The notes under the pieces were generated by a model. It did no database searches and had not been told where the DNA came from. It saw only the letters and a program-made list of their open reading frames with translations. Position numbers and translations under genes: made by a program. Below are positions 2,582 to 29,417 of a DNA stretch of 35,409 nt, piece by piece (within the stretch, counting starts at the first letter, position 1; the number at the start of each line of letters is the position of its first letter). The DNA is from Clostridiales bacterium (lineage in GTDB: Bacteria > Bacillota > Clostridia > Lachnospirales > Lachnospiraceae): the NCBI GenBank assembly GCA_012837865.1, contig DUQJ01000071.1, positions 1 through 35,409 of the forward strand. Direction: 5' to 3'.

Positions 2582-2611
2582 AAAAAGACGGAGTTTTATT
2601 CTCTCCGTCTT
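2582..2611 (-). terminator. Intrinsic terminator at the end of trhP
   Basis: A 9-bp perfect stem (2585-2593 pairing with 2603-2611, core AGACGGAG/CTCCGTCT) with a 9-base loop and a run of T on the minus strand. The stop codon of the U32 gene (2598-2596) lies in the loop, so the last codons form the stem. It separates the mtaB-to-trhP cluster from sigK. Confidence 0.85.
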
Positions 2612-3840
2612 AAAATATCATAATGATTTAATTGTACACCAAGGTCAATATATATCTTTTGCATCGGATGTGGGCAACTATCCATATCTATCCCATTTTC
2701 ATCTACAATCCTTAATACCTTAACTTCTATGGCTTCCTTATCTGGCTTCATTACTTCTAATCTTTCACCAATTGAAAACTTATTTTTTTGTACTAATCCA
2801 TACAGTCCATCTTTAATATCATCTTCAATTTGTCCCATATAAGTGTATGGTTTCTCATATGTATTATTATCATATATTTGACCTTCATGGGTTGGTTTAT
2901 CAAAGAAAAAACCTGTAGAATATTGTCGATGAATAGATCTTTTTATTTCATCTAAGTATATATCTTTATTTTTATTATAAATATTTGAATCTTCAAAAAA
3001 CTCATCTATTGCTTTTCTATATGTTCTTGCTACGGTTGCAACATATAAAGCGTTTTTCATTCTACCTTCAATTTTAAAACTATTAATACCTGCTTTTACT
3101 AACTCAGGTATATATTCTATCATACACAAGTCTTTTGCATTAAATATATATGTTCCTCTTTCATTTTCTTCTATAGGCAAATATTCACCGGGTCTTGTTT
3201 CTTCCACAATGTGATATTTCCAGCGGCATGAATGAGTACATGCACCTTTATTGGCATCACGTCCTGTGAAATAATTACTTAATAAGCATCTTCCGGAATA
3301 AGCTATGCACATTGCACCATGTACAAATGTTTCTATTTCCATATCACTAGGGATATTCATTCTTAATTGAGTTAATTCTTCTAAAGATAATTCCCTTGCA
3401 GATACAACTCTTTTAGCACCTAATCGATGCCAAAATTTATAGGTCTCATAATTTGTATTATTTGCTTGAGTGCTTATATGTATCTCTATCTCCGGAATAA
3501 CTTCTTTTGCAATATTAAAGACACCCGGATCTGATATTATTATTGCATCTGGTTTATCAGCAGCAAAACTCTTCAAATCATTAAAATACTTTTTAATACC
3601 AAGAAGATCATCATTATGAGCTGTTATATTAGCTGTTACATAAACTTTCTTTCCATGATTATGAGCAAATCTAATGCCTTCTTTCATTTTTTCTAGAGTG
3701 AAGTTTTTAGCCTTAGCCCTTAATCCATACATATCTCCACCAATATAAACAGCATCAGCACCATATAAAACTGCTATTTTTAATACTTCTAAGTCACCTG
3801 CTGGTATTAGTAATTCTGGTTTTATTATATCTAATTTCAT
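2596..3840 (-). CDS. U32 family protein, tRNA uridine 5-hydroxylation protein TrhP type
   Basis: 414 residues. The U32 core starts PELLIPAGDLEVLKIAVLYGADAVYIGG. The four cysteines of the family are present: C178 and C185 (in FVHGAMCIAYSGRC) and C201 and C205 (ACTHSC), likely an iron-sulfur site. The tail has the family signature SFKIEGRMK. U32 proteins are annotated as peptidases, but the YrrN/YrrO/TrhP branch is known to make 5-hydroxyuridine at the tRNA wobble position. It lies 13 bases downstream of a TrmR-type methyltransferase, which methylates that hydroxyl, so the pair would make 5-methoxyuridine. The same pairing is found in B. subtilis (yrrM-yrrN-yrrO). It ends inside a terminator. 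Family certain; role well supported by context. Confidence 0.85.
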   Translation of the reverse strand: MKLDIIKPELLIPAGDLEVLKIAVLYGADAVYIGGDMYGLRAKAKNFTLEKMKEGIRFAHNHGKKVYVTANITAHNDDLLGIKKYFNDLKSFAADKPDAIIISDPGVFNIAKEVIPEIEIHISTQANNTNYETYKFWHRLGAKRVVSARELSLEELTQLRMNIPSDMEIETFVHGAMCIAYSGRCLLSNYFTGRDANKGACTHSCRWKYHIVEETRPGEYLPIEENERGTYIFNAKDLCMIEYIPELVKAGINSFKIEGRMKNALYVATVARTYRKAIDEFFEDSNIYNKNKDIYLDEIKRSIHRQYSTGFFFDKPTHEGQIYDNNTYEKPYTYMGQIEDDIKDGLYGLVQKNKFSIGERLEVMKPDKEAIEVKVLRIVDENGIDMDSCPHPMQKIYIDLGVQLNHYDILRRRE

Positions 3841-3853
3841 TTTATCACTCTTT

Positions 3854-4513
3854 CTAATTCCTATTACTTATCGCAACTCCGTCCCCTACAGGCAGTATAA
3901 TGGTTTCCAATTCATCTATATGTTTTATAGCATATAAATATTCTCTCATTCTATTATGAATTGTTCTATCTCTTCTTGTTATACTATATCTTGATTGCGT
4001 TACAGTACCATCTTGTAATACATTATCCGTAAGTAATACTGCATCTTGTTGTAATAGTTCTATTAACATTGGCAGGAAATTCATATATTGTGCCTTGGCA
4101 GCATCTAGAAATATAAAGTCAAATTTAATTTTATTATCTACAAGATCATTTAAAACCTCAAATGCATCGGCTTTTATTAATTTGATTTTATCCCTTTTTG
4201 GATAAATATTATTTTTAAAATTAACTTCTGCTTCTTTATAGCGTTTTATACTTTTTTCTATTGTTGTAATTTTAGTATTATCACCTGTATTTTCACTCAT
4301 AAAGAGGGCAGAAAAGCCTATAGCTGTCCCGACCTCTAATATGTTTTTTGGTTTATAAATTTTTAATAAATACTTCAATAAATTTTGAGTGTCCTTTTTA
4401 ATAATTGGTATTTTATTTTTTATTGCCTCATTTTCAAGATTAATTAACTGTTTTGAAATATCTTTATTTAATGAGTTTATATATGAAGTAATTCTTCCAT
4501 CTACTATCATCAT
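3854..4513 (-). CDS. trmR: O-methyltransferase, tRNA 5-hydroxyuridine methyltransferase TrmR type
   Basis: 219 residues, class I SAM-dependent O-methyltransferase of the YrrM/COMT-like family. The SAM loop is ILEVGTAIGFSALF at about 58-71. Likely metal-binding residues are D137 (FIFLDAAKAQY) and D163/N164 (LLTDNVL). In B. subtilis this enzyme uses SAM and a divalent metal to turn 5-hydroxyuridine at tRNA position 34 into 5-methoxyuridine. Placement directly before a U32 hydroxylation protein gives this role rather than a catechol or caffeoyl-CoA substrate. Two ATG codons in tandem follow AGGAT; the first is used here. It follows the MltG-like gene by 13 bases and is part of the same cluster. 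Confidence 0.85.
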   Translation of the reverse strand: MMIVDGRITSYINSLNKDISKQLINLENEAIKNKIPIIKKDTQNLLKYLLKIYKPKNILEVGTAIGFSALFMSENTGDNTKITTIEKSIKRYKEAEVNFKNNIYPKRDKIKLIKADAFEVLNDLVDNKIKFDFIFLDAAKAQYMNFLPMLIELLQQDAVLLTDNVLQDGTVTQSRYSITRRDRTIHNRMREYLYAIKHIDELETIILPVGDGVAISNRN

Positions 4514-4526
4514 CTTATCCTAGCTT

Positions 4527-4940
4527 TCAATTATCAATGTCTTCATGAACAATAGATGCTGAATAATTAGTTATATTATCAAGTATTTGTTCATAAGTCA
4601 TAGATGTATTTAATCTGTATGTTCCTGGCAGAATATTAGCTTTTTGTAATTTTGCTTTTATAAGGAAGGGGTTTTTATCAACGATTAATCTATTAATTTC
4701 TAATTTCTTAGAAATATCCATCGAGGATTCACCTTTATTTATTTGGAATAATATATCCCTACCAGGCGCTTGTTCTACTGATACATCACCATATATTTGA
4801 TAAGTAAATGTATATGCCTGTCTACTTACTGATATTATAGCTGTTGCAATTAGGATATAAAATAAAACATTTAATACGAACCTAAATACAGAGCCTATTA
4901 TTCTAAATGCAATTTTTGATGAAGTAGATTTTGTTTCCAT
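4527..4940 (-). CDS. Short MltG/YceG-like membrane protein lacking the catalytic domain
   Basis: 137 residues from ATG 4940-4938, chosen because GAGG lies 6 bases upstream; a GTG at 4952 in frame has no binding site. A basic cytoplasmic N-terminus is followed by one membrane helix (about 20-38), then an extracellular stretch with FQINKGESSMDISKKLE and LPGTYRLNTSMTYEQILDNI. This matches the LysM-like N-terminal part of MltG (endolytic transglycosylase). Full MltG is about 330-380 residues and has a catalytic Glu in its C-terminal half; that half is absent and the gene ends in a clean stop with trmR 13 bases on. B. subtilis has its MltG homologue yrrL at the same place. It may be a regulator or scaffold rather than an enzyme. 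Confidence 0.7.
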   Translation of the reverse strand: METKSTSSKIAFRIIGSVFRFVLNVLFYILIATAIISVSRQAYTFTYQIYGDVSVEQAPGRDILFQINKGESSMDISKKLEINRLIVDKNPFLIKAKLQKANILPGTYRLNTSMTYEQILDNITNYSASIVHEDIDN

Positions 4941-4958
4941 TTTACGCCTCACATTGTT

Positions 4959-6926
4959 TTAGTGTATTTCCATGATTATCGGTAATATCATTGGATTTCT
5001 TTTAGTTTTTTTCCATATGAAATCACTTAGAGCATCTTTAGTAACCGCTTTGATTTTGCCCCATTCCATGTTGTTTGAATTCATGCATTTGTCCAATGCT
5101 TTTTCTACTACTAATCTTGCTTCTTCCATTAAATTTTCAGATTCTCTAACATATACAAAACCCCTAGATACAATATCAGGTCCAGATAAAATATTGTTAG
5201 TATGTTTCTCTAATGTAATTACAACTATTATTAGTCCGTTTTCAGATAAATGTTGCCTATCCCTTAAAACAATATTTCCAACATCACCAACACCTAAACC
5301 ATCAACAAAAATACCTTGTGCCTGTACTTTACCAGTAACAACTGCCTGTTCTTGATTAAGCGTTAGAACATCACCTGATGAAATAATTTTAATATTTTCT
5401 TTTGGTATCCCTATTAGTTCAGCTAATTCACCATGTTTAGTTAAATGTTTATATTCACCATGAACTGGTACTGCATATTTAGGTTTTGTTAATGCATATA
5501 TAAGTTTAATCTCTTCTTGACATGCGTGGCCAGATACATGCGTATCCTCGTAAATAACTTTAGCGCCTTTCATGGATAATTCATTAATTACCTTTGAAAC
5601 AGCTTTTTCATTACCAGGGATTGGAGTTGAACTTAAAATAACAACATCTCCTGGCTTAATTGACACTTTTCTATGAATCGATGCAGCCATTCTTGATAAT
5701 GCTGCCATTGATTCTCCTTGGCTACCAGTAGTGATTAATAAGAGTTGTTCATCAGTATAGTTTTTCATTGTTGCTACATCAATTATCATGTTTTCTGGAA
5801 TGTCCAAATAACCTAACTCTTGGGCAATTCTAACGATATTAACCATACTTCGACCTTCAATAACTACTTTTCTATCAAATTTCTTAGCCGAGTTTATGAT
5901 TTGTTGAACCCTATCAACATTAGAAGCGAAGGTTGCAACAATAATTCTTTTCTTAGAATGATCTGTAAAAATATTATCAAAATTTTTGCCTACAGAACTT
6001 TCTGACATAGTATAACCAGGTCGTTCTGCATTTGTACTATCACATAATAATGCTAAAACACCTTTTTTACCTATTTCAGCAATTCTTTGCAAATCAATTA
6101 CCCCACCAAATACTGGTGTGTAATCTATTTTAAAATCGCCTGTATGAAATATTGTACCTGCAGGTGTATAAATTGCAAGCGCTGAAGCATCAGCTATGCT
6201 ATGATTTGTTCTTATAAATTCTATTCTAAAGCAACCTAAATTAATTGATTGTCCATGACTAACTACTTTTCTTTTGGTAGCCTTTAATAAATTATGTTCT
6301 TTTAATTTATTTTCTATTATTCCTATAGTAAGTTTTGTTGCATAAATAGGTACATTCACATCCCTTAATACATATGGTAGTGAACCTATATGGTCTTCAT
6401 GACCATGAGTTATAACAAAACCTTTTACTTTGCTAAGATTATCCTTCAAATAAGTTACATCAGGTATTACTAGATCTATTCCTAACATATCATCTTCAGG
6501 GAAAGACAGGCCACAATCTACAACAATTATAGTGTCTTGATATTCTATTGCTGTTATATTCATACCTATTTTTTCTAGTCCACCTAAAGGAATGATTTTT
6601 ACACCCTCTATTTCATTTAGCTTTGTGTCTTTTGCTATATCTACAACCGTTTCTTTTATTTCATTTTTATCATTGTTTTTTTGTGGGGCCCTTTTTATAT
6701 ATTTTTTATATACAGGGTTCTTCTTTATAACCGCTGTTTTTGTATTATTAATTTTGATATTCTGTTTCTCCTTTTGATTTTCATTTTGTTTCACATTTTG
6801 TTTCGTATTTTCTTTCGTGTTTTGTTTCATATTTTGATTCTCATTTTCTTTCTGATTTTGTTTCATGTTCTGATTTTCATTTTGTTTCATACTTTCTTTC
6901 TCATTTTCTTTCTCATTTTCTTTCAA
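4959..6926 (-). CDS. rnj: Ribonuclease J with a long tetrapeptide-repeat N-terminal tail
   Basis: 655 residues; RNase J is usually about 555. The core begins near residue 108 (VKIIPLGGLEKIGMN) and has the metallo-beta-lactamase metal motif HGHEDH at 174-179, then the beta-CASP domain with CDSTNA and GHAC-type motifs and a C-terminal domain ending PMILPIIMEIH. The enzyme does 5'-3' exo- and endonucleolytic RNA decay and processing in the cytoplasm. The first 60 residues are 15 tandem tetrapeptides of form x-K-x-N, rich in Lys, Asn, Gln and Glu and certainly disordered. The start is TTG 6926-6924, supported by GGAGGTG 7 bases upstream. Next in the cluster is the MltG-like gene, 18 bases after the stop. 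Confidence 0.93.
   Translation of the reverse strand: MKENEKENEKESMKQNENQNMKQNQKENENQNMKQNTKENTKQNVKQNENQKEKQNIKINNTKTAVIKKNPVYKKYIKRAPQKNNDKNEIKETVVDIAKDTKLNEIEGVKIIPLGGLEKIGMNITAIEYQDTIIVVDCGLSFPEDDMLGIDLVIPDVTYLKDNLSKVKGFVITHGHEDHIGSLPYVLRDVNVPIYATKLTIGIIENKLKEHNLLKATKRKVVSHGQSINLGCFRIEFIRTNHSIADASALAIYTPAGTIFHTGDFKIDYTPVFGGVIDLQRIAEIGKKGVLALLCDSTNAERPGYTMSESSVGKNFDNIFTDHSKKRIIVATFASNVDRVQQIINSAKKFDRKVVIEGRSMVNIVRIAQELGYLDIPENMIIDVATMKNYTDEQLLLITTGSQGESMAALSRMAASIHRKVSIKPGDVVILSSTPIPGNEKAVSKVINELSMKGAKVIYEDTHVSGHACQEEIKLIYALTKPKYAVPVHGEYKHLTKHGELAELIGIPKENIKIISSGDVLTLNQEQAVVTGKVQAQGIFVDGLGVGDVGNIVLRDRQHLSENGLIIVVITLEKHTNNILSGPDIVSRGFVYVRESENLMEEARLVVEKALDKCMNSNNMEWGKIKAVTKDALSDFIWKKTKRNPMILPIIMEIH
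6747..6926 (-). repeat. Degenerate 12-bp tandem repeat coding the RNase J tail
   Basis: Fifteen 12-base units in frame, each coding a tetrapeptide such as MKEN, EKEN, MKQN, ENQN, TKEN or VKQN, with Asn in the fourth position of almost all units. On the plus strand it reads as repeated variants of CATTTTCTTTCT and CATTTTGTTTCA. Units have diverged by point changes, so it is old rather than a fresh expansion. Gain or loss of a unit would keep the frame. Confidence 0.85.
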
Positions 6927-6997
6927 TTATTGCACCTCCAATGGTTTTTATGTAATGTTTCTATCCATTAATTAAGTGCATGATTTGCATTAGATTT

Positions 6998-7450
6998 TTA
7001 ATCTGCATTATTCCTACATTTTCTGCAACGTCCAAATAATTTAACTTCATGGTCCTCAACCTTAAACCCTATAGAAGAAAATATTTTATTTTCGAGGTTC
7101 TCTAATAAATCATCTTGAAACGAAGAAATACTTCCACATTCAAGACATATTAGATGGTGATGTCTATGAGCTTTATCACGATCCTTATCTCCAATTTCAT
7201 ATCGCACATATCCATCTTCTAAATTCAATTTTTCAACAAGATTTAAATCAGTTAATAATAATATGGTTCTGTAAACAGTAGCTAGTCCAATATCTGGGTA
7301 GTCTTCTTTTACATAATCATAAATCTCATCCACTGTTAAATGCTCATTAGGCCTGGTATTTAACACCTGTAGAATAGCTATTCTTTGATTAGTCACTTTT
7401 AAGCCATGTTCTCTTAATAATACTTTAAATTTATCCTGAGTTTCTGGCAT
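6998..7450 (-). CDS. Fur family metal- or peroxide-sensing repressor
   Basis: 150 residues. The N-terminal winged helix contains GLKVTNQRIAILQVL and the DNA-reading helix around GLATVYRTILLLT. A His-rich metal site (HRHHHLIC, about 96-102) and two structural zinc pairs, C102/C105 and C142/C145, are all intact. Fur proteins repress iron (Fur), zinc (Zur) or peroxide (PerR) genes. The sensed signal cannot be settled by eye. In many Clostridia a Fur gene sits at exactly this place, between the DUF1292 gene and rnj. The start is ATG 7450, with AAAGGTG upstream. It lies 31 bases after the DUF1292 gene. There is no obvious operator in the short spacer. Confidence 0.88.
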   Translation of the reverse strand: MPETQDKFKVLLREHGLKVTNQRIAILQVLNTRPNEHLTVDEIYDYVKEDYPDIGLATVYRTILLLTDLNLVEKLNLEDGYVRYEIGDKDRDKAHRHHHLICLECGSISSFQDDLLENLENKIFSSIGFKVEDHEVKLFGRCRKCRNNAD

Positions 7451-12874: not shown

Positions 12875-13741
12875 TCAGTATATCATATATGAAATATTTT
12901 TAATAGATTGATTTTCCAATGCTTTTAATATGTAATAGGGATTAACACTCATTTCTCCATTATTATCTACATATATACCCATATGCAGATGAACTGGGAA
13001 CATATCAATTGTAGCTTCTGGTCCATATCCACTATTACCCATAAAACCAAGTAATTGCCCAGCTATCACCATATCACCTTTTTGCAAATTAGGAGAATAT
13101 GAATATAAATGTGCATAATAAAAATAACCACCTGAATGCGTTCTAATTCCTATTCTATATCCACCTTTTTCAAGCCAGCCAATATTTTCAACAACACCAT
13201 CGGTTATACTTACTACTGGAATATTACCTTTTATATCGTCTGAATCAAAGATATCCGTTCCTTCATGTAATCTATCTCCACCATAACTTCTATGAGCATA
13301 CCAACTATTTTCATAATAATAATTAATATTATCATAATCAGGTTTTAGAATTGGAAAGCATTTCAAATCTAAAAAGACTGCCTTATTAAAATTATATAAT
13401 TCAATAAACTTTTCATTATTAGTTAAAGCAGGTAAAGACTTTACAAAAAGCTTTATACTTTTATTCTTTTTATTAATTAAATCATAGTCATTTACCAACA
13501 TATTAAATGTAATATATCCAATATCATTAAAGTATGGGTTTGAATTATCATATAATTCATTATTACAATCTATTATATCACTAGATATTTTCATCTCTCT
13601 ATATGCTTCATAATCAATTTCACTCTTAGTTATATTATTTATAAAAATTTTAGTTATCAAGAATGTATGTTGATTCATAATAATTATAAATAAGATACAA
13701 AGTAAAAATATTTTTATAACTCTCTTTTGACTACTTCTCAT
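12875..13741 (-). CDS. M23 family metallopeptidase, membrane-anchored
   Basis: 288 residues. A basic N-terminus and one hydrophobic segment (about 8-23) give a signal anchor. The C-terminal LytM/M23 domain has its zinc ligands: H159 and D163 in LHEGTD, and HLH 251-253, with H211 in YYAHLY. All catalytic positions are intact, so it is probably an active peptidoglycan endopeptidase outside the membrane. The region 40-145 is not recognised. It sits between a terminator (downstream of the LCP gene) and the cysteine desulfurase. GAGGTG lies 4 bases before the ATG. No coiled coil is evident, unlike EnvC-type activators. Confidence 0.85.
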   Translation of the reverse strand: MRSSQKRVIKIFLLCILFIIIMNQHTFLITKIFINNITKSEIDYEAYREMKISSDIIDCNNELYDNSNPYFNDIGYITFNMLVNDYDLINKKNKSIKLFVKSLPALTNNEKFIELYNFNKAVFLDLKCFPILKPDYDNINYYYENSWYAHRSYGGDRLHEGTDIFDSDDIKGNIPVVSITDGVVENIGWLEKGGYRIGIRTHSGGYFYYAHLYSYSPNLQKGDMVIAGQLLGFMGNSGYGPEATIDMFPVHLHMGIYVDNNGEMSVNPYYILKALENQSIKNISYMIY

Positions 13742-13760
13742 TATACACCTCTTTACATAT

Positions 13761-13801
13761 AAAAACCACGAGACAGCTATGTATTATAACTGTCATCGTG
13801 G
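13761..13801 (-). terminator. Intrinsic terminator after the LCP gene
   Basis: On the minus strand a long stem (CCACGA-GACAG pairing with CTGTC-TCGTGG, one bulged base, arms 13790-13801 and 13766-13776) is followed directly by TTTTTATA. It lies about 48 bases after the LCP stop codon and just before the M23 gene start. Confidence 0.88.
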
Positions 13802-13848
13802 AACACTGTTTAAAGAATTATATGTCCATAGCCAATAATCTATAACAA

Positions 13849-15132
13849 TTAATTACCATTGATTTTTAAATTCTCTGTAGAAATCGATAAAGTTTTAACA
13901 TCGCCAAATATAAATTGATGTAATGCTTCTATATTTTTATCAAAATCAAGTACAAGTGGATCCATTCCCCTGATTGAAACATTGTCTCTAAAGGCTCCAT
14001 CTATAGGTATCCTTAATTGTTCCATATCTCTTGCTCCTGTTTCTAAGAATTTAGAAAGCAGGAATTCAAACTCTTTATCTGTTATATCTGTTGTTAACAT
14101 TGGTAGCATTTTATACATCATAGTTAAAAGTTCAACATTGCTTAAATTCTTATATTTATCAAATATTGCATTTAATATAATTCTATGTCTATCTGTTCTT
14201 CCATAATCATCGCCTTTGCCTGTAATTGCTTTTCTATATCTTACCCTAGAATAACCAAGTGCTTGATTACCATTCATAATCTGTTTTCCAGCTACAACTT
14301 TTCTATTAGATATTTCGGAAATATAATTTGTTCTATTTAAATAGCTTGCCTCTGAAGAAGTGAGTTCAACTTCAACTCCACCTAAGAAGTCAATTATTTG
14401 TTCAAAATTACTAAAATTCACCAACACACAACCATCTATTCGTATATCAAAGTTTTTAGCAATTGTTTGATATAATAATTCAACTCCACCCTTAGAATAG
14501 ACAGAATTTATTTTATTATCATTATATCCCGGTATTTGAACATAACAATCCCTCATAAGAGAAGTTAATTTGATAGATTTTTCTTTTGTATTAATAGTTG
14601 CAATTATAATAAGATCAGTTCGTCCTCTATTTCCATATGAACCAATAGCTTCTTCTCCAAGTAAGAGAATATTATAAGCATAATCTTCATGTCTTCCCTC
14701 TCCATTATTATTTCTAAATATAATGTCTTCAGCTTTAATTTCTGTAAGATTATTTTCATCACTATCTTGCTCTATTAAATCTATATCATCAAAATCATCC
14801 GTTACATCATCAACATCATCAAATTTATTAGTAGATAATGACCATATCTTACCACTAATTTTTTTTAGTAAGGAATGCCCTTGTGGCGTATAAATAAGGA
14901 ATAAAGCAAGTGAACATAACATTACTAATGTTACGGATAGCCCTATTAATAATTTTTTAACATTAAACTTTTTATTTTCTGGTAGCTCTTCATTGGCAGA
15001 TAGTTCTTTCTTTACTTGTTCTGCTAATGATGAATTAATTCCCTCTAATTCTGAATCAACATTTTCATCAAATTCTATATTAGGCATGTAATCATCTGAT
15101 ATCTTATCAGAATCTATTTTATCTTTATCCAT
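13849..15132 (-). CDS. LytR-CpsA-Psr (LCP) family cell-wall glycopolymer transferase
   Basis: 427 residues. A charged cytoplasmic N-terminus of about 60 residues, one membrane helix (about 61-81), an acidic linker (105-119, DDVDDVTDDFDD), then the LCP domain from about 150. Key residues: R171 and D173 in GRTDLIIIATI, R194/D195 in LMRDCYVQIPG, and the late DYGRTDRHRIIL arginines. LCP enzymes move teichoic acid or other polymers from undecaprenyl phosphate to peptidoglycan outside the cell. The gene is followed by a strong terminator and begins 55 bases after the pepD stop; a TATAAT is visible in that gap but without a convincing -35. The long acidic linker is uncommon but not diagnostic. Confidence 0.9.
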   Translation of the reverse strand: MDKDKIDSDKISDDYMPNIEFDENVDSELEGINSSLAEQVKKELSANEELPENKKFNVKKLLIGLSVTLVMLCSLALFLIYTPQGHSLLKKISGKIWSLSTNKFDDVDDVTDDFDDIDLIEQDSDENNLTEIKAEDIIFRNNNGEGRHEDYAYNILLLGEEAIGSYGNRGRTDLIIIATINTKEKSIKLTSLMRDCYVQIPGYNDNKINSVYSKGGVELLYQTIAKNFDIRIDGCVLVNFSNFEQIIDFLGGVEVELTSSEASYLNRTNYISEISNRKVVAGKQIMNGNQALGYSRVRYRKAITGKGDDYGRTDRHRIILNAIFDKYKNLSNVELLTMMYKMLPMLTTDITDKEFEFLLSKFLETGARDMEQLRIPIDGAFRDNVSIRGMDPLVLDFDKNIEALHQFIFGDVKTLSISTENLKINGN

Positions 15133-23317: not shown

Positions 23318-23770
23318 TTAGAAGTATTTTCTATTTCCCCATAGATTACTTTTTTTCAAATCTATATACTCATTATAAGCCTCTTCTAAAATCTGCTTTT
23401 CATTAGCAAATCTTAGCATATGATAAGCTTCATGAAACTTGTAATAACCTGAATCTACAAAATACTCTTCTCTTTGTGGTTTGCTATAATAATTATCAGA
23501 CATCATTAAATACCAATGAACATCCTTTAATACTGTATCTCTGTGAGTGCTAAAAGAATATTGGCTTTTGCCTATATACTTTATTATAGATGCCTCTGCT
23601 CCCGTTTCTTCTAAAACTTCACGGATTGCCGTTTCTTTATATTCTTCGCCTGGTTCTACCGTGCCTTTTGGTAATACCCAGCCTTCATATTTGTTTCTAT
23701 AATTTTTATACAGTAATAAAATTTTGCCTCTGAATATAACAACACCACCACAGCTCGTTGCTTCTACCAT
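23318..23770 (-). CDS. NUDIX hydrolase
   Basis: 150 residues from ATG 23770-23768, chosen because GGAGGG lies 6 bases upstream; the longer in-frame ATG at 23824 has no such site. The NUDIX box is complete at about 36-58: G-x5-E-x7-REVLEETGA. It starts EATSCGGVVIFRGKILLLYKNYRNKYEGWVLPKG, typical of the family of nucleotide- and dinucleoside-polyphosphate hydrolases. Substrate unknown. Ends at the shared terminator. It lies 107 bases after the SEDS-PBP gene, with no terminator visible between, so may be read from the upstream operon. Confidence 0.88.
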   Translation of the reverse strand: MVEATSCGGVVIFRGKILLLYKNYRNKYEGWVLPKGTVEPGEEYKETAIREVLEETGAEASIIKYIGKSQYSFSTHRDTVLKDVHWYLMMSDNYYSKPQREEYFVDSGYYKFHEAYHMLRFANEKQILEEAYNEYIDLKKSNLWGNRKYF

Positions 23771-23876
23771 CGCAATCCCTCCTGCTTTTTGGTGTTTGCT
23801 TCTTAATCTAAAATTAGTATACACTAATAAAATTAAATTATCAACTTTATTTTTACAAGTTTTTTACCAGCATTTT

Positions 23877-26594
23877 TTAATTATCAAAGTAAACATTTAA
23901 TATTTTCTTAGCAATAGGCACAGCATAGCTACTTCCTGTTCCTTTGCTTTCTACTATAACACTAATTGCAATTTCAGGATTATCATATGGTGCATACCCA
24001 ATAAACCATGCATGGGCTGGTTTATCCTTTTGTTCAGCAGAACCTGTTTTACCTGCAACTTTAACTTTTAATTTATTTAGGTCACTAGCAGTACCTTCAG
24101 TAACTACACCTCTCAGCATTTTACTTAATACAATTGATTCCATACGAGAAATAGGTTTAGCTAATTCCTTTGCCTTATTTTGTTTAACTATACGCCCGCC
24201 TGCTTCTTCTATACGATCAACAACATATGGCTTCATCATCGTCCCTCTATTCGCTATTGTTGAAATTATCATAGCATTATGCAAAGGTGTTATTAATGTT
24301 TCGCCCTGCCCTATTGATGTTTGCATTATATCAGATATGCTTGCAGATTCTTTTGTTAACGAATAAACACTTGCACTATTATTAATATTAATAGGTAAAT
24401 TTTTATTAAAATAAAAATCTTGGCAAAGCCCATAAAAGCTATCCAAATCTAATTCTTTTCCTATATTAGCATAAAAAGTATTGCATGAATGAACCGTTGC
24501 TTTATATAAATCTACTTCTCCATGAACTTTTCCATTATAGCAATGTATGGTCATGTTATTATTGGTTGTTTTACCTTTACAATTATATTTATATTCTAAA
24601 TATGATGGATTGTTTCTTATATAAGATAATGCAGTCATTATTTTAAATGTAGAACCTGGTGGATACTTCCCTTGTGTTGCCCTGTTCATTAATACTGAAT
24701 TCTCAGTATCATCTTTTATATTATCCCATATATCATTTATTATATTAGGATTATAATCTGGTTTTGATACCATTGCTAAGATTTTACCTGTAGAAGGTTC
24801 CATAACTACTACTGCACCTTTATTGTCTCCAAGAGCTGAGGATGCTATTTTTTGCAAATCTAAATCCAATGTAGTTATAATATTATTAGCCTTATTCTTT
24901 TTACCTGATAATTCATTTATCAAACTTTCAACAGAATTGATCTCAGCAGTAAGTAGGCGGATATTTTCACTTTCTTCAATACCTGAGCGACCTTTAGAGA
25001 CTCTTCCTACTACATGAGCAAATAAATTATCATATGGATATATCCTTTGCTCACTTCCATCATCATTAGTTTTAGTTGTTGCTATAGCAGTTCCATCAGA
25101 TGTTAAAATGTCTCCTCTAACAACTATCTCTTCCAAAACATCATTTCTTTTATTATAAGCATTATTAATAAAATCCCCTCTATCGAATAATAGGAATTTA
25201 GTGAAATAACCAATCATAATTACAAATAAACCTAGAAATATATATATAACTTTTAATATAGCTTTATTTTGTTTGTTAAAATCTGATTTAGCTCCATCAT
25301 TACTAAATTTAAGTTGAATCCCTTGAATAATCATAAACATTATAATTGTTGAAATTATCGAGCTACCGCCATAACTTATTAAAGGCAAGGTAACTCCTGT
25401 AGAAGGAATGAATTTAATTACTCCTCCAATACAGAGAAATGTTTGAAATGCAAATAATATTGAAAATCCTAATGATAATAATCTATAAAACATATCTTTT
25501 ATCTTAAAAGAAATAATTATCATCATCAAAAATGTGTTTACATATATTAAAATTAAACTGATGACAAATAAAGCACCAAACTCTTCCGATAATGCTGAAA
25601 AAACAAAATCACTATCAACAACCGGAATATTGTTAGGCATTCCTCTATTGATTCCCATTCCAAACCATCCGCCGGTTCCTATAGCAAATAATGATTGTGA
25701 TACTTGAAATCCTTCTTTATCAATTAAACCTATCGGATTTTGCCAGGCCAAAACTCTAACTTTAACATGGGCAAATAAATTATAAGCAATATATGAAGCT
25801 AGGCTTCCTGCCAATAATCCCGAAAATAAATAAACTGATTTCTTTGTTGCAAAATATAGGATAAAAACATAAGTAACGTAAAATATTAATGCTCCACCAA
25901 GATCTCTTTCAATTACTAATGTTAAAACATTGGCTGCTGCCATAACTGATACTATTAGAACTCTTTTAAAATCAGTTCCTTCTGAAAACAATGCAGCAAT
26001 AGCAAAAACATATATTATTTTAACAAATTCCGATGGTTGAAATACATGACCTCTGATTTCCAGCCAATTAGTTGCACCATATTGTGTGTTCCCATAAAAG
26101 AATACAATTAATAAGATCACAATAGATATAACTCCATATATCCACCCCAATTTATTTAACCATGATAAATTTTCAATAAGGCTAGGGATAATTAAAGATA
26201 ATACAAAAGCTAAAGACACCATTATAAGATGTCTTTGTGCATTATCGAAGGATAATCTTAGTTGTATTATAAATCCGATACTAATTAATAATAAGATATT
26301 CCTAATTAGAAGTTTAGATAAACCAGGATATATCCATTGGTAACCACATAAAACCAATACAAATAACAACAATTCAAAACAATATAATATAATTATTTTA
26401 TTATTTTGCGTTTGTATATAAAGTGCGGCGTTACCTATAAAATGTATTATAAATATTATCACTGCCATTTTAAAATAGATTAAATCTTGCTTGATTTTAT
26501 CCTTTACTTTATAGGAAAAAAAAGCGAAATATGCATATATTGCTATTAGGAAAATCATACTGTATTTAATCAATTCAACGCTTAGATGCTTCAT
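23877..26594 (-). CDS. Fused SEDS glycosyltransferase and class B penicillin-binding protein
   Basis: 905 residues from ATG 26594-26592, one base after the upstream U32 stop; an ATG 14 codons earlier lies inside that gene without a binding site. Residues about 1-90 are three extra membrane helices. About 95-430 is a SEDS polymerase (FtsW/RodA/SpoVE) with FQPSEFVKI (185-193), the acidic residue D329 in DSDFVFSALSEEFG, and LISYGGSS (405-412). A further membrane helix (about 448-465) leads to a PBP pedestal (RGDILTSDG, 493-501) and a transpeptidase domain with S648 in STFK, SCN 703-705 and KTG 849-851, so both active sites look intact. Such an enzyme would polymerise lipid II and crosslink the strands from one chain. 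Normally these are two separate genes. It ends the ruvA-ruvB-zapA-U32 run. Confidence 0.93.
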   Translation of the reverse strand: MKHLSVELIKYSMIFLIAIYAYFAFFSYKVKDKIKQDLIYFKMAVIIFIIHFIGNAALYIQTQNNKIIILYCFELLLFVLVLCGYQWIYPGLSKLLIRNILLLISIGFIIQLRLSFDNAQRHLIMVSLAFVLSLIIPSLIENLSWLNKLGWIYGVISIVILLIVFFYGNTQYGATNWLEIRGHVFQPSEFVKIIYVFAIAALFSEGTDFKRVLIVSVMAAANVLTLVIERDLGGALIFYVTYVFILYFATKKSVYLFSGLLAGSLASYIAYNLFAHVKVRVLAWQNPIGLIDKEGFQVSQSLFAIGTGGWFGMGINRGMPNNIPVVDSDFVFSALSEEFGALFVISLILIYVNTFLMMIIISFKIKDMFYRLLSLGFSILFAFQTFLCIGGVIKFIPSTGVTLPLISYGGSSIISTIIMFMIIQGIQLKFSNDGAKSDFNKQNKAILKVIYIFLGLFVIMIGYFTKFLLFDRGDFINNAYNKRNDVLEEIVVRGDILTSDGTAIATTKTNDDGSEQRIYPYDNLFAHVVGRVSKGRSGIEESENIRLLTAEINSVESLINELSGKKNKANNIITTLDLDLQKIASSALGDNKGAVVVMEPSTGKILAMVSKPDYNPNIINDIWDNIKDDTENSVLMNRATQGKYPPGSTFKIMTALSYIRNNPSYLEYKYNCKGKTTNNNMTIHCYNGKVHGEVDLYKATVHSCNTFYANIGKELDLDSFYGLCQDFYFNKNLPININNSASVYSLTKESASISDIMQTSIGQGETLITPLHNAMIISTIANRGTMMKPYVVDRIEEAGGRIVKQNKAKELAKPISRMESIVLSKMLRGVVTEGTASDLNKLKVKVAGKTGSAEQKDKPAHAWFIGYAPYDNPEIAISVIVESKGTGSSYAVPIAKKILNVYFDN

Positions 26595-26595
26595 C

Positions 26596-29040
26596 TTATA
26601 ATATCCCTCGTTTAAAATGACCACTTGTATAGTCATCTATTCTTGATATAATATCCTTTTTATGTTTAAATTTATTAATATATTGATCAATTACATTTTC
26701 AATTTCATTATTATTCTCAATTGTAAAATCCATTCTAATTCTATGAGGTTTTAGTTTATCAATATCATTATTATGATTTATTAAAGACAAAACCTTACTA
26801 TTATAAATAATGTTATAACAATCTCTGCAATTAATCTTCACTGGAAATTTCATATCCATCTTGTCTAGTAAAACACCTGTTTTCCCACTATCCTCTCTAG
26901 CTTTTATACATCCTACAGTATTTTTATAAACACATTGAGTAGAAACCATTACAGGAATGTTACCATATACTATCAAATCACAATCATTAATAGTTAATTG
27001 TCTTAATTCACCATAATTAAGTTCTACCGGAGCAGTAAATCTACTAACCCCTAAACTATTCCACAATAGTTTGGCTTCTTTATTATAAATATACATATTG
27101 TAATCTAAAATACATTCTTTTTTAGAATTAATTTCTTTTATTAGATTTACCTCTTCAATATTTCTAATTATATACCCATCTATATTATTATCTAATAATA
27201 GGTGTTTATGCTTTAAAAGATAATTATAAGTTGATTCTCTACATATTCTAGGTAAGGCATAATAAAACTTTTTATTAGTTTTTAATTCATTAATAATATT
27301 ATAAATTTCATCTATCTCTAAAAAATCCAAATCAATATATATATATTTTACATCTTCCTTTGTTATAAGATATTCTAACTGTCCGACCATCTGTACCGAA
27401 GCTGCTATGCCATAGTTTTTAATTTCCAATTCTTTTGATACTCTTATAATATCTTCCTTATACTTTTCCTCTGAATTTCTCTGATATTTTTTAATGATTG
27501 TATCTTTTAATAATTCAATTGCTTCGCGCCGTATTTGATTTAAATTTGTTAAAGGAATAAAAGCAGAATCATATAATTCTAAATCAATCTTCTTAAAACT
27601 AAAATAACTTTCTCCTGTTTTATTTATTTGTTTAATTATATCGTCTTTTGTAATAGGACGTTTAAAAGCTTTTTCTACATTATTCATCTCTACTTCTATC
27701 TCTAAATGATGTAATTCTGAGATTAATTTCAACTTTAATGGTAAGCCTATTTTAGCTGTTAGTATTGCATGAACTTCTATTTTATTATCTTCTTCTATAT
27801 ACTTATTTTTTATATTATTAATAAGTTGCTTGTTTCTGGTCCGATATACTTTATCTCCAATTTTATATCTATCATTGCCTTTATTTTTTAAATACCTTGT
27901 AGAAAAAATATTTCCACTTGAAATGCTATCTTTAACTGTAAATTCATAAGATATGTTTTTCCCTCTAATCTCTAATATATCTTGACCATTAATATCCTTA
28001 GTTAGTAAAACTTTAATCAACTTAGGATTTACATCCGTAATTGTCCCAACTAAAACACCTTTGTGATTAGGTCTAGCCATTGACATCATGGTTTTACCAC
28101 TGTAGTTTTGAAGATATCCTGCTGTAAAATTACCTCTGTTATATATGTCTTGCAAAAGCATTATATCATCTGAATATTCTTTATTTTTTATATTTACTAT
28201 ACTTTTATAATTTGTCTTACCTTCACTAAAATATAAATCAATATATTTTCTATAAAAGCTTGTTACAGTCGCTGCATATGCCGAGCTTTTCATTCGTCCT
28301 TCTATTTTAAAAGAGTCTATCCCTGCATCAATCATTTCAGGTATAAACTCCACTGCGCATATATCTTTTGGGCTTAATATATATTTATTAACATCAGACG
28401 ATAATACTTGTCCATTATTATATAATTTATATTCCATTCTACATGGCTGTGCACATCTACCTCTATTGCCACTTCTGCCACCAATCATACTACTCATTAA
28501 GCATTGCCCTGAATAGGAGTAGCATAAAGCACCATGTACAAAAGTTTCAATTTCAACATTTGATTTTTCTTTTATTTTTTTAATTTCCTCTAATGATAAC
28601 TCCCTAGGGGTTACCATTCTACTTATCCCAAATCCTTCTAATAAGTTTATACCTTCTGCCATCATTGTTGTTGCTTGAGTGCTTAAATGAATAGGTAATT
28701 TAGGAAAATGCTTGTTTATAAAATTAATAGCTCCTAAATCCTGTACTATAACAGCATCTAATCCTTGTTGATAAAATTTATATAAAAATTCATATAATTG
28801 TTCTTTCATTTCTTTTTCTTTTATTAATGTATTTACAGTTAAATAAAGTTTTACATCTTTAATATGAGCCTCATCAATAGCCTCTAATAGTAATTCATCT
28901 GTAAAATTATTAGCATATGCTCTTGCACCAAAAGCACTGCCTCCTAAATACACAGCATCACAACCTGCATTAATAGCAGCTCTCATTGACTCTAATGTTC
29001 CTGCTGGTGATAATATTTCTATATTACTTTTATTATGCAT
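26596..29040 (-). CDS. Large U32 family protein with DUF3656-type C-terminus (TrhP-like)
   Basis: 814 residues, about twice the small U32 protein in this window. The U32 core has EILSPAGTLESMRAAINAGCDAVYLGG and cysteines C173, C180, C196 and C200 (HGALCYSYSGQC, GRCAQPC), likely an iron-sulfur site, then SFKIEGRMKSS. The C-terminal half (about 400-814) matches DUF3656-bearing members and holds further cysteines (INCRDCYN). Related proteins hydroxylate tRNA wobble uridines; some U32 members act on 23S rRNA (RlhA). The target here is not known. It overlaps the zapA stop (TAATG) and runs into the SEDS-PBP gene with one base between, so translation is tightly coupled. Confidence 0.85.
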   Translation of the reverse strand: MHNKSNIEILSPAGTLESMRAAINAGCDAVYLGGSAFGARAYANNFTDELLLEAIDEAHIKDVKLYLTVNTLIKEKEMKEQLYEFLYKFYQQGLDAVIVQDLGAINFINKHFPKLPIHLSTQATTMMAEGINLLEGFGISRMVTPRELSLEEIKKIKEKSNVEIETFVHGALCYSYSGQCLMSSMIGGRSGNRGRCAQPCRMEYKLYNNGQVLSSDVNKYILSPKDICAVEFIPEMIDAGIDSFKIEGRMKSSAYAATVTSFYRKYIDLYFSEGKTNYKSIVNIKNKEYSDDIMLLQDIYNRGNFTAGYLQNYSGKTMMSMARPNHKGVLVGTITDVNPKLIKVLLTKDINGQDILEIRGKNISYEFTVKDSISSGNIFSTRYLKNKGNDRYKIGDKVYRTRNKQLINNIKNKYIEEDNKIEVHAILTAKIGLPLKLKLISELHHLEIEVEMNNVEKAFKRPITKDDIIKQINKTGESYFSFKKIDLELYDSAFIPLTNLNQIRREAIELLKDTIIKKYQRNSEEKYKEDIIRVSKELEIKNYGIAASVQMVGQLEYLITKEDVKYIYIDLDFLEIDEIYNIINELKTNKKFYYALPRICRESTYNYLLKHKHLLLDNNIDGYIIRNIEEVNLIKEINSKKECILDYNMYIYNKEAKLLWNSLGVSRFTAPVELNYGELRQLTINDCDLIVYGNIPVMVSTQCVYKNTVGCIKAREDSGKTGVLLDKMDMKFPVKINCRDCYNIIYNSKVLSLINHNNDIDKLKPHRIRMDFTIENNNEIENVIDQYINKFKHKKDIISRIDDYTSGHFKRGIL

Positions 29041-29417
29041 TATTTATTCCTTTGTTTTTTTAAATCATTTATTTGCTGTTTAAGTTCCTTATTTTCTTTT
29101 TGATTTTCATCTGTTTTCACTTTTAAAGATAATATTTCATGTTTTAAATCATATATTTCTTGATTTTTTTCTTCAATCTTTTTATTCAACTCTTTTGTAT
29201 TATCTAAAGCTTTAAAATAGTCGTTGCCTATATTAATCTGTATAAGAGTATTCCTAGTATCAGAATCAATAAGCCTATATGCGTCTTTTCCTTTTAGTTC
29301 ACTGTGTTTGGAATTAATATATGAAGCTATTCTTTGTATATGTTCTTCGCTTTCATATCCACGAATAAGATAACGTTTGTTATTAATAATTACTTCAGCA
29401 TTATTTGCATTCTTCAT
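29040..29417 (-). CDS. zapA: Cell division protein ZapA
   Basis: 125 residues. The N-terminal globular part has [27 protein letters not shown], typical of ZapA, and residues about 78-124 form a long charged coiled coil ([21 protein letters not shown]...), longer than the minimal 80-90 residue form. ZapA binds FtsZ in the cytoplasm and bundles protofilaments at mid-cell. It overlaps ruvB by 17 bases and the U32 gene by 1 base. The AGAGGTG binding site lies inside ruvB. Confidence 0.88.

Follow-up and report, generated by a model that had tools for sequence, protein, structure and literature searches.

In the 35,409-nt stretch of DNA analysed here (referred to as the window), a SEDS glycosyltransferase and a class B PBP lie within one and the same reading frame, which raises the questions whether this fusion is genuine, which of the cell's synthases it would represent, and how often and why two genes became one. 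Within these families, the SEDS protein polymerises lipid II and the PBP is responsible for crosslinking. The reading favoured here, with a probability of about 85%, is that of a single-chain peptidoglycan synthase, which arose when the two tandem genes of a SEDS-bPBP pair, the third of this genome and of PbpA type, merged into one (Table 1).

Table 1 Features of the fusion gene and its neighbours; residue numbers refer to the 919-aa frame (subtract 14 to obtain the 905-aa numbering of the initial annotation)
Feature	Position	Strand	Details
NUDIX hydrolase gene, directly downstream	23318..23824	-	
SEDS-PBP fusion gene	23877..26594	-	905 aa, ATG 26594-26592
Alternative upstream in-frame start, ATG at 26636	23877..26636	-	919 aa
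Three extra N-terminal membrane helices	26331..26594	-	residues 15-102, model secondary structure
SEDS glycosyltransferase core	25314..26279	-	residues 120-441, Pfam PF01098 FTSW_RODA_SPOVE 193 bits (cut-off 26.4); AlphaFold2 model
D343, conserved loop aspartate	25608..25610	-	D in 78/78 aligned proteins
Linker	25272..25301	-	residues 446-455, presumably cytoplasmic
PBP membrane helix	25167..25271	-	residues 456-490, AlphaFold2 model
Short PbpA-type dimerisation domain	24879..25118	-	residues 507-586, Pfam PF21922 PBP_dimer_2 41.9 bits (cut-off 27)
Transpeptidase domain	23898..24818	-	residues 607-913, Pfam PF00905 209.4 bits; Foldseek 4mnr, 4r0q, 3upn
SxxK motif STFK	24642..24653	-	residues 662-665
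SxN motif SCN	24480..24488	-	residues 717-719
KTG motif	24042..24050	-	residues 863-865
U32 peptidase gene, conserved neighbour immediately upstream	26596..29040	-	
zapA, next gene upstream of U32	29040..29417	-	

As claimed by the initial annotation, SEDS protein and class B PBP share a single uninterrupted frame, which contains no in-frame stop and carries both sets of catalytic motifs in complete form; the strand, which had not been named, is the minus strand. Its start, yielding 905 codons, is likewise preferred over the ATG at 26636, because the stop codon of the upstream U32 gene (TAA, 26598-26596) and a GAGGG 10 nt 5' of the ATG lie immediately ahead of this start codon, which is residue 15 of the 919-aa frame. 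A chance open frame is excluded, since 919 codons are free of stops, the other two frames contain many stops near the junction (residues 400-520) and third-position GC is low throughout the gene. Judged by its sequence, the fusion is thereby confirmed as real.

All three Pfam domains of the fusion score above their cut-offs, the PBP_dimer_2 match placing the protein in the PbpA subfamily. The second half is a class B PBP by virtue of its transpeptidase domain, its SxxK, SxN and KTG motifs, a single membrane helix and the lack of a GT51 transglycosylase domain, for which no Pfam match was found in the fusion protein. The chain resembles class A PBPs in uniting polymerase and transpeptidase, but differs from them in that its polymerase is of the SEDS type. 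The motifs listed earlier (FQPSEF, an aspartate then numbered D329, GGSS, SxxK, SxN and KTG) are all present, with FQPSEF at 199, D343 as the former D329 within DSDF, and GGSS at 423; D343 we take to be the equivalent of D262 in E. coli RodA. Among the aligned proteins covering the respective site, serine and lysine of SxxK are kept in 77/77, SCN in 75/75 and K(T/S)G in 72/72, with KSG in two of the latter. Two fused proteins carrying KSG instead of KTG (L191 and L192, from G414 and G099) are paired on a long branch.

An AlphaFold2 model of the whole chain, based on an input alignment of 85 sequences, gave a single confident arrangement of 14 helices (pLDDT 95.1, pTM 0.89). Accordingly modelled, the protein is predicted with high confidence to be a compact one-piece chain, in which the PBP membrane helix follows the SEDS helices; the new membrane helix that had been proposed at 448-465 is thus recovered, at 456-490. 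The three extra N-terminal helices described before are also found in the model. They cannot, however, be regarded as a feature of the fusion and constitute a subfamily trait instead, since the split SEDS genes of the window genus align from residue 6-19 onwards. With respect to topology, the K-rich loop 43-51 after helix 1 and the presence of K in the linker would fit an N terminus on the outside and a junction in the cytoplasm. A structure alignment comprised 15 of the 16 fused proteins (G039 left out) together with 35 of 62 other SEDS proteins and 35 of 62 other PBPs.

Regarding the gene context, the fusion had been placed directly behind zapA, but the U32 peptidase gene intervenes. The order zapA, U32, SEDS gene recurs in 46 of 56 relatives' loci, while U32 without zapA occurs in 5/56 and neither gene in another 5/56, several of these lying on short or split stretches. 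Usually, ruvA and ruvB are located ahead and NUDIX after, and the split SEDS and PBP genes of relatives are arranged in tandem, in the same order as the halves of the fusion. Elsewhere in the window, M23 peptidase and LytR-CpsA-Psr genes at 12875-15132 represent additional cell-wall genes, and a second U32 peptidase gene, with a U32 C-terminal domain, is found at 2596-3840.

To which class of synthase the protein belongs can be judged from both halves. The PBP half is PbpA-like: its nearest solved relatives in sequence and fold are Atopobium and Eggerthella PBPs and M. tuberculosis PbpA (sequence matches 4n1x, E 1.2e-58; 4mnr, 9.1e-54; 3lo7, 9.6e-41), and with the latter enzyme it shares PBP_dimer_2 as well as a fold, with target TM-scores of 0.84-0.88 for 3upn, 3un7, 3upo, 3upp and 3lo7. 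Among solved structures, the SEDS half ranks RodA (6bar, 1.7e-27) ahead of FtsW (25hr, 3.5e-19); contrary to this ranking, NCBIfam places FtsW slightly above RodA, with all scores below the respective cut-offs (FtsW 200 of 337.5, RodA 184.5 of 336.7 and SpoVE 139.6 of 448.8 bits). The PBP half likewise stays below the NCBIfam cut-offs for PBP2 (301.7 of 455 bits) and SpoVD (170.3 of 688 bits), so that both halves are set apart from RodA, FtsW and PBP2 proper. SEDS core and transpeptidase are nevertheless homologous to those of RodA-PBP2 systems (RodA of T. thermophilus, 6pl5, E 2e-27; of E. coli, 8tj3, E 1e-21). RodA-PBP2 and FtsW-FtsI, however, consist of separate chains, and the PBP described here matches PBP_dimer_2 and not PBP_dimer. 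Tandem arrangements of SEDS and PBP genes are also known from 17 mostly actinobacterial loci (L125-L129, L131-L136, L138-L143), which differ from the present one in that all 17 contain two genes, the best segments are 28-35% identical, and the other neighbour genes of the window were found beside none of them.

The architecture as such is already known in print. Natural single-ORF SEDS-PBP fusions, likewise uniting a SEDS polymerase and a PBP in one reading frame, are stated in one sentence of PMC10449877, which cites the genome paper of Rhodococcus sp. RHA1. That sentence mentions no Clostridia, whereas the fusion reported here is of PbpA type, lies in a zapA-U32-NUDIX locus and belongs to several separate fusions. 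A search of the open-access literature, outside of which most subscription papers lie, returned no account of Lachnospiraceae SEDS-PBP fusions or of such fusions arising repeatedly.

The initial annotation had suggested looking for separate pairs elsewhere in the genome, and SpoVE/SpoVD-type as well as RodA/PBP2-type genes were indeed detected. Besides the fusion, two SEDS genes and four transpeptidase genes with near-full domain matches are present. One SEDS gene (contig C21) is clustered with two SpoVD-like PBPs of 584 and 646 aa, and the other (contig C90) is accompanied by mreC, a 948-aa PBP2-like protein and minD; here, the SEDS and PBP labels denote the highest or nearly highest match, with scores short of the equivalog cut-offs, while mreC and minD score above theirs. 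Because of these two sets of genes, the fusion is counted as the third synthase. For comparison, Clostridioides difficile is described as having the pairs SpoVE-SpoVD and RodA-PBP2, plus an orphan PBP3 (PMC12154710). The 948-aa PBP2-like protein is encoded at 4244-7090 of L100, between mreC and minD, and relatives likewise contain open frames with this match, about 950-965 aa in length.

A role in septal or sporulation wall synthesis, which had been proposed from the zapA neighbour alone, is not supported, and separate SpoVE/SpoVD-type and RodA/PBP2-type genes are at hand. Nor was a tight link to sporulation seen in the few genomes compared: G048 (97% complete) and G054 (100%) contain Spo0A without the pair, and G035 (94% complete) contains the pair without a Spo0A match. 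Neither does it follow from the fused state that activation between the partners is built in, as had been assumed, for a tether sets stoichiometry and not activity. An artificial RodA-PBP2 fusion is reported to be active and still to be stimulated by a PBP2 substitution (PMC6207328), and RodA-PBP2 is described as being switched by an opening motion (PMC10257715); tethering, therefore, need not mean constant activity.

Within the genus of the window, the locus is found in 32 of 34 genomes (it was not seen in G009 and G024, which are left out of the following counts). Four of the 32 are fused (G000, G020, G021, G033), another four keep both parts in frame with at least one stop (G013, G027, G028, G029; in G028 with an X near the SEDS end), and in the remaining 24 SEDS and PBP occupy different frames. 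Homologues that are always two genes in close relatives had been named as evidence against a fusion; this pattern applies to 28/32 genomes with two or stop-interrupted genes, but not to the 4/32 with a single gene. In the Lachnospiraceae, 353 of 397 sampled genomes match at least one half (E 1e-80), and at least 12 of these 353, the window included, are fused at ORF level among the matches listed. Further genera also have single-frame fusions at this locus, one example being the genome G447, which consists of one contig and is 99% complete. In 14 of the remaining fused genomes, the SEDS part of the fusion lies at places matched by the window protein, and the fused frame is the sole SEDS frame above 535 aa, with other SEDS frames measuring 369-535 aa. 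Across the class, 391 genomes searched at E 1e-115 gave no clear additional fusion, and 398 genomes of the phylum at E 1e-110 gave four more stop-free joint matches (G1105, G1123, G1142, G1202), with the junction inspected in G1105 alone. All fusion counts are lower bounds, as long linkers or distant sequences can escape such strict E limits.

Several candidates were treated separately. In genomes outside the class, joint matches whose halves are separated by a single TAG brought up stop-codon recoding; joint matches favour same-frame pairs, and recoding was rejected for L226-L229, where a SEDS stop is followed by a PBP start at the junction, a verdict that covers these four loci and not G855, G1021, G1068 and G1114. 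G521 appears to be fused, but has four X in the junction and was not counted; G218 (open frame 942) was left out of the fusion count as well, and the fused row of G387 runs off its contig and is doubtful. In another family of the order, L078 of G039 (3694-5919) is fused across the junction and frameshifted inside the transpeptidase part, by either error or decay; it was kept as fused in the tree.

This quick protein tree included 78 loci with both halves above the score limit; it under-samples split family genomes and over-samples fused ones (16/78 rows versus at least 12/353 in the family sample). On it, the fused state changes 10 times, at least 9 changes being forced by supported branches, or 9 times without the doubtful rows G039 and G387; within the genus, 4 changes account for 4 fusions, all of these figures referring to changes and not to their direction. 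Holding the genus fusions as one clade costs 567.5 log-likelihood units and is rejected (p-AU 1.2e-85), and in the genus no row is strongly supported as nearest sister of the window row. With split forms in most sister rows, repeated fusion is the most economical interpretation, and these two adjacent genes seem to have been fused several times in Lachnospiraceae. Fast evolution specific to the fusions, considered for the four genus members in comparison with their split sisters, is not supported in general: in the window genome, ruvB, U32 and zapA evolve at least as fast as SEDS and PBP, and G020 gives a mixed picture. In G021 and G033, the SEDS half is more distant from outgroups than its counterpart in the split sister, by 3-9 identity points, with neighbour genes ranging from -4 to 6 points in the same comparison, and a shift in the SEDS half after fusion is possible in these two.

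Against this background, the origin of the single frame can be weighed. An error in assembly or base calling could in principle join two normal genes, and the window genome is indeed a fragmented draft (221 contigs, 80.5% complete) within a genus where 28 of 32 loci consist of two genes or are interrupted by in-frame stops. Such an artefact is nonetheless hardly credible, as the junction is shortened and devoid of a PBP start codon instead of being merely frame-shifted, the same architecture recurs in further genera, also in a genome consisting of a single contig, and N bases are absent from all 16 fused genes. Compared with the window, the junction is longer in 30 of the remaining 31 genus loci and shorter in G020 only; a one-base error would not yield such a shortening. 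Moreover, no ATG, GTG or TTG occurs between residues 436 and 473 of the window gene, and thus a PBP including its membrane helix cannot start alone from a usual start codon. Cleavage of the fused chain after translation into two working subunits has a precedent in the artificial E. coli RodA-PBP2 fusion, of which a minor part is reported to be cut (PMC6207328); for the natural protein we regard it as improbable, given that the model suggests no exposed long linker, with about ten residues between the SEDS helices and the PBP helix.

Whether fusion was selected is a different matter. A tether might bring fixed stoichiometry, faster re-docking or independence from accessory factors and, hence, be gained repeatedly, which would agree with the at least nine forced changes, the conservation of catalytic residues in fused proteins whose sequence spans them (2/14 having KSG instead of KTG) and the possible shift in the SEDS halves of G021 and G033. 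This explanation is rather doubtful, as fusions are still rare in the family sample, short tandem genes fuse easily, and the neighbour genes in the window are as fast or faster, with G020 being mixed. Equally tentative is the extended version that the zapA-U32-linked pair was fused about 9-10 times independently because tethering is useful, that sister species form a natural experiment and that the window PBP can apparently be made in tethered form only; if true, split and fused sister species would test whether separation of the two partners is ever needed in a SEDS-bPBP complex. On the favoured reading, as the genome's third, PbpA-type pair turned into a single-chain synthase, the SEDS stop and a stretch with the PBP start would have been lost, and with both joined ends presumably cytoplasmic the membrane topology would remain unchanged. 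By analogy to the separate RodA-PBP2, the SEDS half would use D343 to polymerise lipid II, and crosslinking of the strand would fall to the transpeptidase half. The fusion looks like an easy, repeated by-product of an obligate 1:1 partner encoded by the next gene and not like a new enzyme mechanism.

Artificial fusions of RodA-PBP2-like pairs are reported to work (PMC6207328, PMC10449877), and nature here displays this lab-built design, a single chain comprising a SEDS polymerase and a class B PBP. The recurrent joining of one pair is consistent with an obligate and lasting 1:1 complex, the fused proteins, confidently predicted in one piece, are candidates for structural work on SEDS-bPBP complexes, and the locus marks a third, little-studied synthase of Lachnospiraceae.

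The junctions themselves vary considerably, with linkers of 10 to 85 residues in the fused proteins when measured on one scale. Only two of the 16 fused genes (G000 and G306) are without ATG, GTG or TTG in the aligned stretch, and the other 14 contain at least one such codon. Four of these start codons, found in G033, G151 and G414, are preceded by an SD-like stretch, and in some fused species the PBP might also be produced on its own. A near-fused state is observed in L053 of G013 (4630-7449), where SEDS and PBP share the same frame with a single TAA between them and ATG codons are located 12 and 14 codons ahead of the aligned start of the PBP.
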